NCBI GenBank assembly: GCA_016193065.1
Contig: JACPSX010000176.1
Coordinates: 1 to 16,239 of the forward strand
DNA: 16,239 bases
From: Candidatus Tectimicrobiota bacterium
Lineage (GTDB): Bacteria > JACPSX01
Direction of reading: 5' to 3'
Shown: positions 6,523 through 16,239 of the stretch, in pieces
How positions within the stretch are numbered: position 1 is the stretch's first letter
Layout of the letters: the number at the start of each line of letters is the position of its first letter
Position numbers and translations under genes: made by a program
Notes under the pieces: generated by a model
Told to the model about the DNA's origin: nothing
Database searches by the model: none
What the model saw: only the letters and a program-made list of their open reading frames with translations

Positions 6523-7373
6523 CCTTTGCCAAACAGACCCGTGGGCTTGACGGCCAAAATGATCGCCATGGGCGCGAAGATCGTGAACAGGGAAAACTCG
6601 GGAAATAGGGCCTTCCCGAAGTTGTCCAGGAGGCCCACAATGAGGCTTCCCACGAAGGCCCCTTTGAGGCTTCCGAGACCGCCGATGATGACGACCACAA
6701 AGGCAAGCAATAAAATTTCAAAGTCCACCCCGGGATAGACGCCCACAAAGGGTCCCCCGATGACCCCAGCGAGGGCGGCCAGGGTTGCCCCTATGCCAAA
6801 GACGATAGTGAACAGGAAAGGCATGTTGATCCCAAGACCGCGAGTCATCTCTTCATCGTCAACCCCGGCCCGGATGATTGCTCCGATGGCCGTTTTTTCC
6901 TGGAGGACCCAAAGAGCTAGAGCAACGAGAAACCCTACTCCGATGACAAAGATGCGGTAACTGGGGATCACGATGTTGCCGAACCGGTAAGACTCTTCAA
7001 ACAGAGAGGGCTTTGGAAGCGCCTGGGGATTCCCTCCCCAAATCCAGAGAGCCACATCGGCAATAATGAAGAGAAACCCGAAAGTGAGCAGAACCTGGGC
7101 CAGCTCGTTCTTGTAGAAGCGGCTCAAGAAGAAGCGCTGCATGATAATGCCTACAATGACCACCACCGCAACAGCGCCCACAATGGCAAGCAAGAAGCTG
7201 TTTGTCTTCTTGATGACCGCCAAGCCCACGTAGGCTCCCAGTAAATAATAGGAGCCGTGAGCGAGGTTGATGATCCCCATGAGCCCGAAGATGAGGGAGA
7301 GACCTGCGGCCAGCAGGAACAAAAGCATGGCAAAGGAGAGGCCGTTAAAGGTCTGGACAAGCCAAAATGTCAT
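6519..7373 (-). CDS. livH: LivH-like branched-chain amino acid-type ABC transporter permease
   Basis: This 284-residue membrane protein is of normal LivH length. It begins with a hydrophobic stretch and the family motif GLMGIINLAHGSYYLLGAYVG, has the coupling loop AIIRAGVDDEEMTRGLGIN, and ends with the conserved FVVVIIGGLGSLKGAFVGSLIVG. With LivM it makes the transmembrane pore of the importer. The ATG at 7373 gives the expected N-terminus although no strong ribosome-binding site precedes it. The gene lies 324 nt downstream of the SBP gene on the same strand, with a probable terminator in that gap. Confidence 0.95.
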   Translation of the reverse strand: MTFWLVQTFNGLSFAMLLFLLAAGLSLIFGLMGIINLAHGSYYLLGAYVGLAVIKKTNSFLLAIVGAVAVVVIVGIIMQRFFLSRFYKNELAQVLLTFGFLFIIADVALWIWGGNPQALPKPSLFEESYRFGNIVIPSYRIFVIGVGFLVALALWVLQEKTAIGAIIRAGVDDEEMTRGLGINMPFLFTIVFGIGATLAALAGVIGGPFVGVYPGVDFEILLLAFVVVIIGGLGSLKGAFVGSLIVGLLDNFGKALFPEFSLFTIFAPMAIILAVKPTGLFGKG

Positions 7374-12019: not shown

Positions 12020-12553
12020 ATGGGGGAACCCGATCTGGATGCTGCCTTGAGGATGGCGATCAATCGGGAGGTGGTTTCCTTCCTGTACTACGACATCCTG
12101 TCCGGGCAGAAGAATTTTCCGGAGTACCTGCGGCAGGTTTTCAGTTTTCTGGCCGAAGGGGAGCGTGAACATTTGGCGGCGCTCGTCGGGAGCCAGCAGA
12201 AACACGGGGGAGGTGCGGGATTTGAGGGTCCGGCCGATCTCATAGAGAAGAACCGGGCCTTTGTGCAGGAGAGGGTCCGGGAGGAGGTTGCTGAAGCCAT
12301 CCGGAAAGGTTATCCTGAACCGCGGGAAGTGCTGACGCGGGCGGTGAAGAAAGAACAGCAGTCGGCGCGTTTTTACTCTTTTTACTCGGGCTCCGTGAAG
12401 AACCGTGAGGTAAAAGCCTTCTTCAAAACCTTGCTGCAGGAAGAAAAAGAGCACGTGAAGATCATGAAAGCTCTCCATCTGCTGGTCGAGAAGGGAATCA
12501 TGGGAGTCAACAACCTAGCCGACAAGGCCAAGACAAAGAAGGGGTCGAGATGA
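12020..12553 (+). CDS. Ferritin-like di-iron protein (rubrerythrin-type, no rubredoxin domain)
   Basis: The 177-residue protein is a four-helix bundle of the rubrerythrin/ferritin-like superfamily. Candidate di-iron ligands fall in the expected repeats: Glu17 in INREVVSFLYYD, Glu48 and His51 in AEGEREH, Glu112 in KKEQQSARFY, Glu142 and His145 in QEEKEH. There are no cysteines, so the C-terminal rubredoxin domain of classical rubrerythrins is lacking. In anaerobes such proteins reduce peroxide or handle iron, which suits the neighbouring SOD. GGGAGGA (12008-12014) marks the start 15 nt after the SDR stop. Its stop overlaps the nuoI start as ATGA, so it is translationally coupled to complex I genes. 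Confidence 0.88.
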   Translation: MGEPDLDAALRMAINREVVSFLYYDILSGQKNFPEYLRQVFSFLAEGEREHLAALVGSQQKHGGGAGFEGPADLIEKNRAFVQERVREEVAEAIRKGYPEPREVLTRAVKKEQQSARFYSFYSGSVKNREVKAFFKTLLQEEKEHVKIMKALHLLVEKGIMGVNNLADKAKTKKGSR

Positions 12554-13062
12554 TCCGCAGGTTTTGCAGGGAAATCCTTGACGTCTTTTGGCCCATCTCC
12601 AAGGGGATGCGGGTTACCTTGAAGCACCTGTTCAAGGTGCCGATTACAGTCCAGTATCCGGTGGAAAAACTGAACCTGGCGACCCGGTTCCGGGGCAGGC
12701 TATTTAACAAGATGGAGGACTGCATCGGCTGCGACAACTGTGCCGTCGTCTGTCCTACGAGTTGCATCTCCATGGACCTGGTGCGCAAGCCCAAGGACGC
12801 TCCCAAGGAATTCACCTCCGACGGCACGGAGATAAAGATCCTGGTGACCCGTTTTGACATCGACCTGACCCGTTGCATGTTCTGCGGCCTCTGCACCATC
12901 CCCTGCCCGACGGAGTGCCTCACCATGAGCGAAGGCTACGAGCATGCGTTTTACGACAAGGAGGAGTGGATTCTGCGCTTTGGCGCCAACACGAAGAATC
13001 CGGAACTCCTTGCCCTGGATCCCAAGAAGCAAGATGAGAAGGCCGCCGCAATTGCATCCTAA
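12550..13062 (+). CDS. nuoI: NADH-quinone oxidoreductase subunit I (NuoI)
   Basis: NuoI carries the two [4Fe-4S] clusters N6a and N6b in the peripheral arm of complex I. Both motifs are intact: CIGCDNCAVVCP (Cys58, 61, 64, 68) and CMFCGLCTIPCP (Cys109, 112, 115, 119). The N-terminal part GMRVTLKHLFKVPITVQYPVEK and the RFRGRLF segment are characteristic of NuoI and separate it from simple ferredoxins. Length 170 is normal. The start overlaps the preceding ferritin-like gene by 4 nt with AAGGGG upstream. It is the first complex I gene of this cluster, which is unusual because nuoI normally follows nuoH. Confidence 0.93.
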   Translation: MIRRFCREILDVFWPISKGMRVTLKHLFKVPITVQYPVEKLNLATRFRGRLFNKMEDCIGCDNCAVVCPTSCISMDLVRKPKDAPKEFTSDGTEIKILVTRFDIDLTRCMFCGLCTIPCPTECLTMSEGYEHAFYDKEEWILRFGANTKNPELLALDPKKQDEKAAAIAS

Positions 13063-13086
13063 TCTCTAGAAAGGGGGTGATCGCCT

Positions 13087-13566
13087 GTGGGAATTTTGGA
13101 AGGACAGTTTGGCTCGAACGCCATTACAACGACAGTGGACAAATTGATCAATTGGGCCCGCAAGTCCTCCCTGTGGCCCATGACTTTTGGGCTGGCGTGC
13201 TGAGCAATTGAAATGATGGCCGCGGGGGCCTCGCGGTTCGATGGTTTTGAGCGCTTCGGAGTCCTGTTCCGGGCCTCGCCGCGACAGTCGGACGTGATGA
13301 TTGTGGCGGGCTCGGTGACTTACAAGATGGCGGAGTTGATTCGCAGGCTGTACGACCAGATGCCTGAGCCCCGCTGGGTGATCTCCATGGGTGCCTGTGC
13401 AACGAACGGGGGCCCTTATAATTCCTACAGTCATATGCAAGGGGTGGATAAAGTGGTCCCCGTTGACGTGTACGTCGTGGGTTGTCCCCCCAGGCCCGAA
13501 GCGCTTATTCACGGTATCATGCAACTCCAGAAAAAGATCGAGCAGGAAAAATTGTTGAGGAAGTAG
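13087..13566 (+). CDS. nuoB: NADH-quinone oxidoreductase subunit B (NuoB) with in-frame UGA at a cluster ligand
   Basis: Reading from GTG 13087 (AAAGGGGGTGA at 13070-13080 upstream) gives a standard NuoB N-terminus, [19 protein letters not shown] then TFGLAC, directly followed by TGA and [13 protein letters not shown]. The TGA replaces the second Cys of the invariant GLACCAIEMM, one of the four ligands of cluster N2. The other ligands are Cys38, Cys104 (GACATNGG) and Cys133 (GCPPRPEA). With the TGA read through, the protein has 159 residues, normal for NuoB. Both sides of the TGA remain conserved and in one frame, so the gene is otherwise undamaged. TGA serves as an ordinary stop elsewhere in this window (folE, livM, nuoF), so a changed genetic code is excluded. 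Selenocysteine insertion or a nonsense mutation/error are the options. Confidence 0.85.
13201..13238 (+). promoter_or_regulatory. In-frame UGA (13201-13203) with SECIS-like hairpin (13218-13238)
   Basis: After the UGA, 14 nt separate it from GGCCGCG (13218-13224), which pairs with CGCGGTT (13232-13238): five G-C pairs and two terminal G-U pairs. The apical loop GGGGCCT (13225-13231) starts with G and lies 22 nt after the UGA. Bacterial SECIS elements are expected just downstream of the UGA inside the coding region, with a short stem and a G at the first loop positions, so geometry is compatible. The stretch also codes for the conserved AAGASRFD in GC-rich DNA, so a hairpin could arise by chance; a competing GGCC/GGCC fold exists. 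Confidence 0.45.
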
Positions 13567-14036
13567 TGGCATCTGAACCTCAGAAAGAGCAGATCCGCCG
13601 CGCCCTGGCTTCTTTCCCCCGGGAACAGACCTACCTGCTTCCCGCGCTGCAAAAGGTGCAGGAAGAATTGGGCTACCTTCCCCCGTGGGCGCTGGAGACG
13701 GTCAGCGAGTATACCCGGGTGCCCAAAAGTGAGGTGTACGGAGTCGCCACTCATTACCCCGAGCTGCGCTTGCATTGCCCGGGTCGCCGGCATATCCGGG
13801 TATGCACCGGGGTTAGCTGCCGCGTCAATGGCTCCCTCGACGTTCTCCGTGCCCTGTCGGAGGTTTTGGGCGTGCGTTCCGGAGAGACCCGGCAGGACGG
13901 TGAGGTGACTCTCGAGGAGGTCGGATGTTGTTTTGTTTGCTCGGTGGCCCCGGTGGTGGAAGTTGACGGGGTATTCAAGGGACGCGTGCAGTCGTCTGCC
14001 GCTGCCTCTATGGTAAACGAGAGGGGGAGGCCGTAG
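13566..14036 (+). CDS. nuoE: NADH-quinone oxidoreductase subunit E (NuoE)
   Basis: NuoE is the thioredoxin-like [2Fe-2S] (N1a) subunit of the NADH-oxidising module. The cluster motif is present as Cys80-x4-Cys85 (VCTGVSC) and Cys121-x3-Cys125 (GCCFVCSVAP, with an extra Cys122 inside). The helical N-terminal part includes LLPALQKVQEELGYLP, typical of the family. The start is set at GTG 13566, whose G is the last base of the nuoB TAG, with GAGG just upstream; the frame continues further upstream inside nuoB, but that part is not NuoE-like. Length 156 is normal. The overlap with nuoB argues that ribosomes normally reach the nuoB stop, hence that the upstream UGA is read through at least sometimes. 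Confidence 0.93.
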   Translation: MASEPQKEQIRRALASFPREQTYLLPALQKVQEELGYLPPWALETVSEYTRVPKSEVYGVATHYPELRLHCPGRRHIRVCTGVSCRVNGSLDVLRALSEVLGVRSGETRQDGEVTLEEVGCCFVCSVAPVVEVDGVFKGRVQSSAAASMVNERGRP

Positions 14037-14041
14037 GCGCC

Positions 14042-15694
14042 ATGGGAACGCCTCAAGAGCGCTGGCGATTACTACAGGGCCAGGCTCAGGCCCAAGAGCC
14101 GCCGGGTACCCGCCTGGCGGGTGCCCGCCTGGCGGGTGCCCGCCTGCTGGTGGGGGCGGGGAGCTGCGGGCAGGCGGTCGGCGCCCTCGAAGTTGCGGCA
14201 GAGCTCCGCGTGGGGCTCGGGAAGCTCGGACTCCGGGTCCCGGTCGTGGAGGCGGGCTGCACCGGGATGTGCTACGGAGCCGTTCAAGTCACCTTGAACG
14301 GTCAGGGGGTTCCCGCCACTTACAGTTCCATTACACCGTCTGAGGCTGCTGCTGCGCTGGCGCAGATTTTAAAAAAGGCGCCTCTCTCTTCCCACGAAGC
14401 CTTCCTGTGGAATCCGGATTCTCAGACTGGACTGCCGGGTCTGCCCTCGATCCCTTTCTTGTGGGGACAGCGCCGGGTTGTCCTGGAACGCTGCGGTCTC
14501 GTGGATCCCGGAGATATCCATGATGCTTTGCGACATGGGGCATACGGGGCCCTGGCCCGCGCACTTACCGAGATGGATCCTCCTCAGGTCATTGCCGTGG
14601 TCAAAGAGTCGGGACTCCTGGGGAGAGGGGGCGCGTATTTCCCTGCCGCACTGAAGTGGGAAGGCTGCCGGGCCGCGCGGGGCGAACCCAAATATCTCGT
14701 GGTGAATGCGGAGGAGGGAGAGCCCGGGATTTTCAAGGACCGCCATCTCATGGAAGGAGACCCCCACAAGCTCTTGGAGGGGATGCTCATTGCCGCTTAT
14801 GCAGCCGGGAGCAGCCGTGGTTTCCTGTTCGTCAACGGGGAGGCCAAGTTGTCCTTCGAGCGCTTGGCCCGGGCGCTGGACCAGGCCCGCAGTCTGGGCC
14901 TCATCGGAAAGCGGATTCTGGGTTCAGACTTCTCCTTTGAGGTGGAGTTGAGGCAGGGAGCCGGTGGCTTTGTCCTGGGCGAAGAGACGGCCCTACTGGA
15001 GTGCATTGAGGGACGGCGGGCCCTGCCTCGCGTGCGGCCTCCGTTCCCCGTCGAATCGGGCCTTTGGGGTCAGCCCACTGTCATCAACAACGTGGAGACT
15101 CTGGCCAATGTGCCTGCGGTCATCGAGCGAGGAGCCAACTGGTTTCAGAGTTTGGGAACAGAAAAGTCCCGGGGAACCAAATTATTTGGTCTGTCCGGGA
15201 ATGTGGCCCGGCCCGGAATTGTCGAGGTGGAACTGGGGCACACCTTGCGGGATCTGATTTTCTCCCTGGGGGGAGGCGTTTCGGGAAAAGCCGGGTTGAA
15301 GGCTGTCCTGCTTGGGGGGCCCTCCGGGAGTCTGGTTCCTCCTCAAGATCTGGATTTGTCTTTGGAACCGAGAGGAAAATTCCCTCTGGGGTCCGGCGGG
15401 GTGGTTGCACTTGACGGTTATCGCTCGATTCTTGACGTCGTCCACACCCTGATCCGCTTCAATACCGGCGAATCCTGTGGAAAGTGCACCCCGTGCCGGG
15501 AAGGGACGGCCCGGCTGTCAGACATGGTGGCCGGGCTGGAGAAAGGCCGGATGCCCTCTACTGTTTTCGGCGAGCTTGAAAACCTGAGCGAGGTTGTGAG
15601 CCTGGCTTCCCTGTGCGGGTTGGGACAAGCCGCCCCGTATTCCGTCCTGAGCGCTCTCCGATATTTTCCCGAGACCCGCGGAGTTTCTCCCTGA
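14042..15694 (+). CDS. nuoF: NADH-quinone oxidoreductase subunit F (NuoF), NADH/FMN-binding
   Basis: NuoF oxidises NADH through FMN and passes electrons to a [4Fe-4S] cluster. Visible are GRGGAYFPAALKW (194-206) and NAEEGEPGIFKDRH (around 223-236) for NADH/FMN, the SLBB region LSGNVARPGIVEVELG, and the N3 ligands Cys479, Cys482, Cys485 (ESCGKCTPCREGT) and Cys525 (SLCGLGQ). The 550-residue length reflects an added N-terminal thioredoxin-like domain (about 30-110) as in HydB/HndC-type proteins; it shows Cys42, Cys73 and Cys77, with Val where a first ligand Cys is often found. A 15-nt tandem repeat lies at its N-terminus. The ATG is 5 nt after the nuoE stop. Confidence 0.94.
   Translation: MGTPQERWRLLQGQAQAQEPPGTRLAGARLAGARLLVGAGSCGQAVGALEVAAELRVGLGKLGLRVPVVEAGCTGMCYGAVQVTLNGQGVPATYSSITPSEAAAALAQILKKAPLSSHEAFLWNPDSQTGLPGLPSIPFLWGQRRVVLERCGLVDPGDIHDALRHGAYGALARALTEMDPPQVIAVVKESGLLGRGGAYFPAALKWEGCRAARGEPKYLVVNAEEGEPGIFKDRHLMEGDPHKLLEGMLIAAYAAGSSRGFLFVNGEAKLSFERLARALDQARSLGLIGKRILGSDFSFEVELRQGAGGFVLGEETALLECIEGRRALPRVRPPFPVESGLWGQPTVINNVETLANVPAVIERGANWFQSLGTEKSRGTKLFGLSGNVARPGIVEVELGHTLRDLIFSLGGGVSGKAGLKAVLLGGPSGSLVPPQDLDLSLEPRGKFPLGSGGVVALDGYRSILDVVHTLIRFNTGESCGKCTPCREGTARLSDMVAGLEKGRMPSTVFGELENLSEVVSLASLCGLGQAAPYSVLSALRYFPETRGVSP
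14104..14148 (+). repeat. 15-nt tandem repeat, three copies, within nuoF
   Basis: Three adjacent units, GGGTACCCGCCTGGC, GGGTGCCCGCCTGGC and GGGTGCCCGCCTGCT, encode the peptide TRLAGARLAGARLL at residues 22-35 of NuoF. The unit length is a multiple of three, so copy-number change keeps the frame. It sits just before the thioredoxin-like domain. Confidence 0.85.
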
Positions 15695-15725
15695 GGTCCG
15701 GTTGTCGATGAGGGGGATACCAGCG

Positions 15726-16239
15726 ATGGCCGGTACGCTGACGATCGATGGTGTTGTCGTCCAGTTCCAGGAAGGGGAAACCGTTCTCGATGCCGTAAAC
15801 CGGTCCGGAATTTACCTCTCCCAACTGTGCAAGGAGCCCGAACGTCCGGCCTTGGGCGCCTGCCGCACCTGTCTTGTAGAGATCGAGAGCGTGCGGGGGT
15901 TTCCGGCTTCCTGCTCCACGCCCTGCCGTCCGGGGATGGTGGTTCGGACCAATTCTCCCGAAGTCGAGAAGATTCGTCGCGGCGTCTTGGAACTCACGCG
16001 CGGGATGCTTAGCCCCGGCGATGGGGAACGCCGGAGGAGCCTCGGCCAGTTTGACCAGGCCATCGAGCACGCCGCAATTCCCCAGGCGTGCTATCAGCCT
16101 CTCCACCGCTATCCAGTCGACGAAAGCAAATCATTCTTTGTTTTGGACCGGGACCTCTGCATCCTGTGCGGGCGCTGCGTGGATGCCTGCCAGCAAGTGC
16201 AGCACATCGGTGCCATTGCCCTGATTGGCAAGGGACATG
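15726..16239 (+). CDS. nuoG: NADH-quinone oxidoreductase subunit G-like protein (NuoG), 5' part only
   Basis: Open from ATG 15726 (AGGGGG at 15711-15716 upstream) to the window end, 171 codons without a stop. Residues 1-75 form a [2Fe-2S] ferredoxin domain with Cys35, Cys46, Cys49 and Cys63 (LCKEPERPALGACRTCLVEIE then PASC), leading to GMVVRTN. Near the end a [4Fe-4S] motif DRDLCILCGRCVDACQQVQ appears. Between them the usual H-x3-C-x2-C-x5-C segment (cluster N5) is not present; the region reads LELTRGMLSPGDGERRR and LGQFDQAIEHAAIP in the same frame. It resembles NuoG and the N-terminal part of NAD-linked formate dehydrogenase or Fe-hydrogenase subunits; without the rest, which of these it is cannot be settled, but NuoI/NuoB neighbours favour complex I. 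Confidence 0.88.
   Translation, partial: MAGTLTIDGVVVQFQEGETVLDAVNRSGIYLSQLCKEPERPALGACRTCLVEIESVRGFPASCSTPCRPGMVVRTNSPEVEKIRRGVLELTRGMLSPGDGERRRSLGQFDQAIEHAAIPQACYQPLHRYPVDESKSFFVLDRDLCILCGRCVDACQQVQHIGAIALIGKGH

Follow-up and report, generated by a model that had tools for sequence, protein, structure and literature searches.

A UGA codon at a cluster N2 cysteine position of nuoB: a candidate selenocysteine ligand in complex I

Cluster N2 serves quinone reduction in complex I and combines a pH-dependent potential with strained tandem-cysteine ligation, the strained Cys pair having been described as N2 ligands in the Yarrowia enzyme in 2021 (PMC8042128). The locus considered here raises the question of why a nuoB gene, which encodes the N2 subunit, should carry an in-frame UGA precisely at the second of these tandem cysteines, and whether that codon is read as selenocysteine (Sec) or reflects a lost gene or a faulty base. 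The window, the whole stretch of 16,239 nucleotides analysed, belongs to contig C144 of a MAG of 2.9 Mb in 294 contigs, estimated to be 86% complete.

The nuoB locus and its place in a proposed split complex I

The nuoB gene lies within a putative operon, the features of which are as follows.

12020–12553, + strand: ferritin-like protein, whose gene opens the putative operon and overlaps nuoI (profile match)
12550–13062, + strand: nuoI, subunit with two 4Fe-4S ferredoxin clusters (profile match)
13069–13082, + strand: Shine-Dalgarno-like AGAAAGGGGGTGAT, 5′ of the nuoB GTG
13087–13566, + strand: nuoB with in-frame UGA, 159 residues, Sec39 proposed; GTG start, TAG stop at 13564–13566
13201–13203, + strand: TGA, codon 39, at the second of the two adjacent Cys positions that ligate N2 (Cys46 in Thermus Nqo6)
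13566–14036, + strand: nuoE, its GTG start at 13566 overlapping the nuoB stop (profile match)
14042–15694, + strand: nuoF, NADH/FMN subunit (profile match)
15702–16239, + strand: NuoG-like Fe-S N-terminal part, continuing past the window (profile match)

The initial annotation had described TGC-TGA at the NuoB Cys-Cys pair, conserved flanks in a single frame, a ribosome-binding site before the GTG and a nuoE start on the nuoB stop, and all four descriptions hold. The TGA is in frame where 110 of 110 homologues have Cys-Cys, the read-through product is a clear NuoB (254 bits against a cut-off of 116 for NCBIfam NF005012; 239 against 143 for TIGR01957), and both the upstream motif and the TAG/GTG overlap are present at the positions listed. 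Apart from the TGA, the gene is intact and carries no further lesion. The other N2 positions, 38, 104 and 133, are Cys, and in Thermus Nqo6 (chain 6 of 2fug/4hea) the counterpart of codon 39 is residue 46, an offset of 7. This Nqo6 position is an established N2 ligand, and the structure of the NuoB fold is known. The 110 homologous loci, drawn from 80 named genome contigs and from relatives' genomes, specify the conserved second Cys by TGC (55) or TGT (55) and contain no internal stops, leaving the window, in this comparison, as the only locus with a stop at this codon.

Beyond the window, contig C144 goes on to encode the alpha subunit of a formate dehydrogenase, of the Cys type (RLCHAP), up to approximately 18388, in a stretch that includes an N gap, giving the order ferritin-like, nuoI, nuoB, nuoE, nuoF, NuoG-like/fdhA. 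A second contig, C21 (L160 6032–12902), carries nuoA-C-D-H-J-K-L-M, and so encodes the NuoB partner subunits A, C, D, H and J–M, and is missing B, E, F, G and I. The window's nuoI and nuoB are the sole candidates found for the missing B and I. On this gene content, the window operon is most simply read as completing the C21 complex I; because it supplies what the C21 operon is without, its UGA-containing nuoB is probably needed. A second intact nuoB, which the initial annotation had held would count against Sec if the window copy were untranslated, does exist as a Cys-type copy on contig C152, but it belongs to a separate set, alongside nuoD, nuoI and a partial nuoG. Gene content also makes formate a possible electron source, the window (12020–16239) and L160 (6032–12902) together outlining a possible formate-fed complex I.

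Several further features of these contigs may be recorded. The ferritin-like protein (12020–12553) has weak similarity to the encapsulin cargo EncB. At L160 2500–2600 the end of nuoL and the start of nuoM are apparently fused, with sequence missing, probably as the result of a deletion or of a join made in assembly. The nuoF gene (window 14100–14150) contains a short repeat, CCCGCCTGGCGGGTG..., there read as RLAGARLAGARL, that recurs on other contigs (L140 about 7100–7300; L155 4290–4335). One copy adjoins the N gap that precedes fdhA, and the element resembles a dispersed, GC-rich repeat located within genes.

Selenocysteine machinery and a candidate SECIS element

The source had initially been guessed to belong to the Desulfobacterota, a placement that finds no support: among 385 diverse genomes compared, the best EF-G identity to the window's genome is 69%, in a genome that is probably from the phylum Nitrospirota. 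A search for selA, selB, selC and selD, proposed in the initial annotation, had a divided outcome. Profile searches recovered SelB (370 bits) and two SelD proteins (410 and 382 bits), each with UGA at its own active-site (Sec) position; the presence of two such selD genes in one genome (L139 8370–9400 and L140 3855–4900) is an observation in its own right. SelA had no match in the 86%-complete MAG, nor was tRNA-Sec found there, the candidates examined being ordinary tRNAs: matches to RF01852 were assigned by ARAGORN to Trp, Ser, Leu, Gly and Tyr tRNAs. Because the start of selB is some 250 bases away from the end of its contig, loss of selA or selC is plausible. Neither the window nor the contigs that carry selB and selD matched any RNA family in Rfam. 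The downstream FdhA is Cys-type, with no in-frame UGA matches in a scan with TIGR01591, and therefore offers no Sec control in this genome.

Two nested structures are predicted directly after the UGA.

13204–13254, + strand: predicted stem-loop, candidate bacterial SECIS, beginning just past the UGA (−19.7 kcal/mol)
13218–13238, + strand: apical SECIS-like hairpin GGCCGCG-GGGGCCU-CGCGGUU with a G-rich loop

The apical hairpin (−12.2 kcal/mol, loop 21–23 nt from the UGA) falls within the published bSECIS limits for loop, stem, spacing and energy, which include a loop of 3–9 nt with G in its first two positions, a spacing of 16–37 nt and an energy of −7.5 kcal/mol or lower (PMC13188914). The SECIS search suggested at the outset thus returns a candidate whose apical strength is matched by 1.1% of 5000 synonymous shuffles at local codon usage (p about 0.01) and by none of the 110 Cys homologues. 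The looser −7.5 limit is passed by 20% of shuffles and by 15 of the 110 homologues, and the minimum free energy of the whole region is ordinary (p 0.23). Taken alone, the stem-loop is modest evidence for Sec.

A second UGA-containing nuoB

Among 386 diverse genomes, the exact pattern A-C-UGA-A-[IVM]-E-M matched the window alone; a scan of 395 genomes from the phylum closest in EF-G gave a single match, on contig C85 of one genome, G639. Across 779 genomes besides the window's own, then, the only other match is this Nitrospirota genome, whose UGA falls on the identical codon of nuoB. The covered sequence of G639 (1.51 of about 1.6 Mb) encodes SelB (387 bits), tRNA-Sec (68 bits), a SelD with UGA and an FdhA with UGA at RL-U-HAP, that is, at Sec sites, a gene complement that marks it demonstrably as a Sec decoder. 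The comparison of UGA with TGC in other nuoB genes, which the initial annotation had called for, accordingly turned up a second UGA in an organism equipped to decode it.

The G639 gene sits in a nuo operon of order nuoA-B-C-D-crp-E-F-G-H-I-J, with no other internal stop in six genes checked, and is the sole full NuoB match in the 1.51 Mb. The lesser matches are a partial C-terminal piece at a contig edge (45% identical) and a 37%-identical piece, probably hydrogenase-type, that adjoins a 27%-identical NuoD-like gene. In a NuoB tree, the G639 protein falls among those of named Nitrospirota and well apart from the window NuoB; this separation of the two UGA genes indicates that their UGA codons arose independently, from two origins.

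The hairpin after the G639 UGA lies within all bSECIS limits except that for energy (−4.5 versus −7.5 kcal/mol; p 0.14 by synonymous shuffling), the fdhA hairpin of the same genome reaching −10.1 kcal/mol. In a close relative, the named Nitrospiraceae MAG L029, NuoB is 93% identical and the codon is TGC; the remaining listed members of the G639 genus show no UGA motif match. Across 176 codons the G639 and L029 genes differ by 40 synonymous and 11 other nonsynonymous changes, a ratio that indicates purifying selection on nuoB. From the UGA to base 57 they differ at three bases only, and one of these, a synonymous T to G, turns a −0.9 non-hairpin in L029 into the −4.5 hairpin of G639, whose loop has its G where the model requires it; 2.9% of random triple changes achieve as much.

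Weighing the readings, and comparison with known systems

The reading that we favour is that the stem-loop just 3′ of the UGA at codon 39 would direct the SelB system of the organism to decode this codon as Sec, yielding a NuoB with Sec in place of the second tandem Cys that ligates the terminal [4Fe-4S] cluster N2. Sec-NuoB and the adjacent NuoI would then complete the split complex I, the remaining subunits coming from the A-C-D-H-J-K-L-M operon, with NuoEF and the formate dehydrogenase-type subunit feeding electrons in. Judged from sequence, we place the probability that the window's UGA specifies Sec at about 0.8, because a repeated chance hit at one codon in a Sec decoder is unlikely: a second accidental hit at this codon, in 779 genomes and in such an organism, would be expected a few percent of the time at most. 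The initial view of UGA at a conserved Cys as the signature of a selenoprotein is supported by SelB, SelD, the SECIS-like hairpin and the UGA nuoB of G639. Counted against Sec are the absence of SelA and tRNA-Sec from the window MAG, the weak G639 hairpin, Cys in the relatives of G639, assembly flaws in the MAG (the nuoL/nuoM junction) and the Cys-type nuoB in the same genome.

The initial annotation had considered a point change or a base error to explain the data equally simply; both now appear less probable than Sec. A recent nonsense mutation would make this a dying nuoB, replaced by the Cys-type NuoB of contig C152, and the intact paralogue and the ATG past the stop, at 13213, speak in its favour. 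Codon 39 accounts for just one of the 57 single-base routes to nonsense in the window nuoB, and Cys codons together for four. The gene has no other lesion, nuoE is coupled to its stop, and the window's nuoI and nuoB are the only candidates for an operon without B and I; in G639, moreover, the other nuo genes are intact and no second full NuoB occurs in 1.51 Mb, so that we consider this explanation unlikely.

Similarly improbable, and if anything slightly more so, is a consensus error over a true TGC or TGT in an ordinary NuoB. A single base would suffice, and the MAG, in 294 contigs, contains N gaps and at least one place that looks wrongly joined, but the error would have to recur by chance at the same codon in the one match among 779 other genomes, which is a Sec decoder; no internal stop is seen in 110 homologous loci, and a nearby synonymous change in G639 builds a hairpin. 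The frame that stays open beyond the UGA would also fit recoding of another kind, whether general stop read-through or insertion of a different amino acid. This is very improbable given a universal Cys position and the Sec machinery present. A reassigned code was rejected, as TGA ends neighbouring genes normally, nuoF and fdhA included, and the code is therefore standard.

Returning to the Sec reading, we infer Sec insertion, selenium ligation of N2 and an effect on the redox or protonation chemistry of the cluster. The fuller proposal, that Sec is an N2 ligand with two or more separate origins, in two phyla, and that it alters the redox or protonation behaviour of electron handover to quinone, appears reasonably probable. 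If true, selenium may sit in the quinone-reducing centre of complex I, a core respiratory enzyme would join the selenoproteome, and the natural exchange of Se for S at an N2 ligand would provide a single-atom probe of the quinone-reducing step. To our knowledge, no earlier complex I selenoprotein has been described, and a Sec NuoB would be the first. Criteria in use in the field are a UGA/Cys pair, a SECIS-like structure and a UGA homologue in another Sec user (PMC12013277), and by these NuoB qualifies as a credible new selenoprotein family. The claim that such a protein is undescribed is upheld in the sources searched: NuoB is not among the 119 prokaryotic selenoprotein families of a 2026 catalogue (PMC13188914), and no report was found in the open-access papers searched, an absence that is no proof of novelty.

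The window NuoB shares with NuoB/NDUFS7 (PSST, the N2 subunit) 60–70% identity, the positions of the four N2 cysteines, three of them Cys here, and all family signatures, and differs in its UGA at the second tandem Cys codon; unlike the usual nuoB, next to nuoA and nuoC, it lies beside nuoI, nuoE, nuoF and fdhA. PF02508 is the Rnf/Nqr membrane subunit family, neither complex I nor NuoB. Its catalogue name, 'NADH:ubiquinone oxidoreductase subunit E', hints at a respiratory NADH dehydrogenase selenoprotein (PMC13188914). Sec likewise occurs in Fe-S proteins in HdrA (CxxU) and the (2Fe-2S)-binding selenoproteins of the CopZ family (GxUC, CU), the CU motif of the window NuoB being found also in form 2 of the latter (PMC13188914), but their folds are unrelated to NuoB and none is complex I or quinone-reducing. 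Within the complex I superfamily, the [NiFeSe] hydrogenases (FrhA, MvhA/VhuU; PMC13188914) also have Sec in place of a metal-ligating Cys. In these enzymes Sec binds nickel in the large subunit, a NuoD homologue, whereas in the window NuoB it is proposed to bind an Fe-S cluster in the small subunit.
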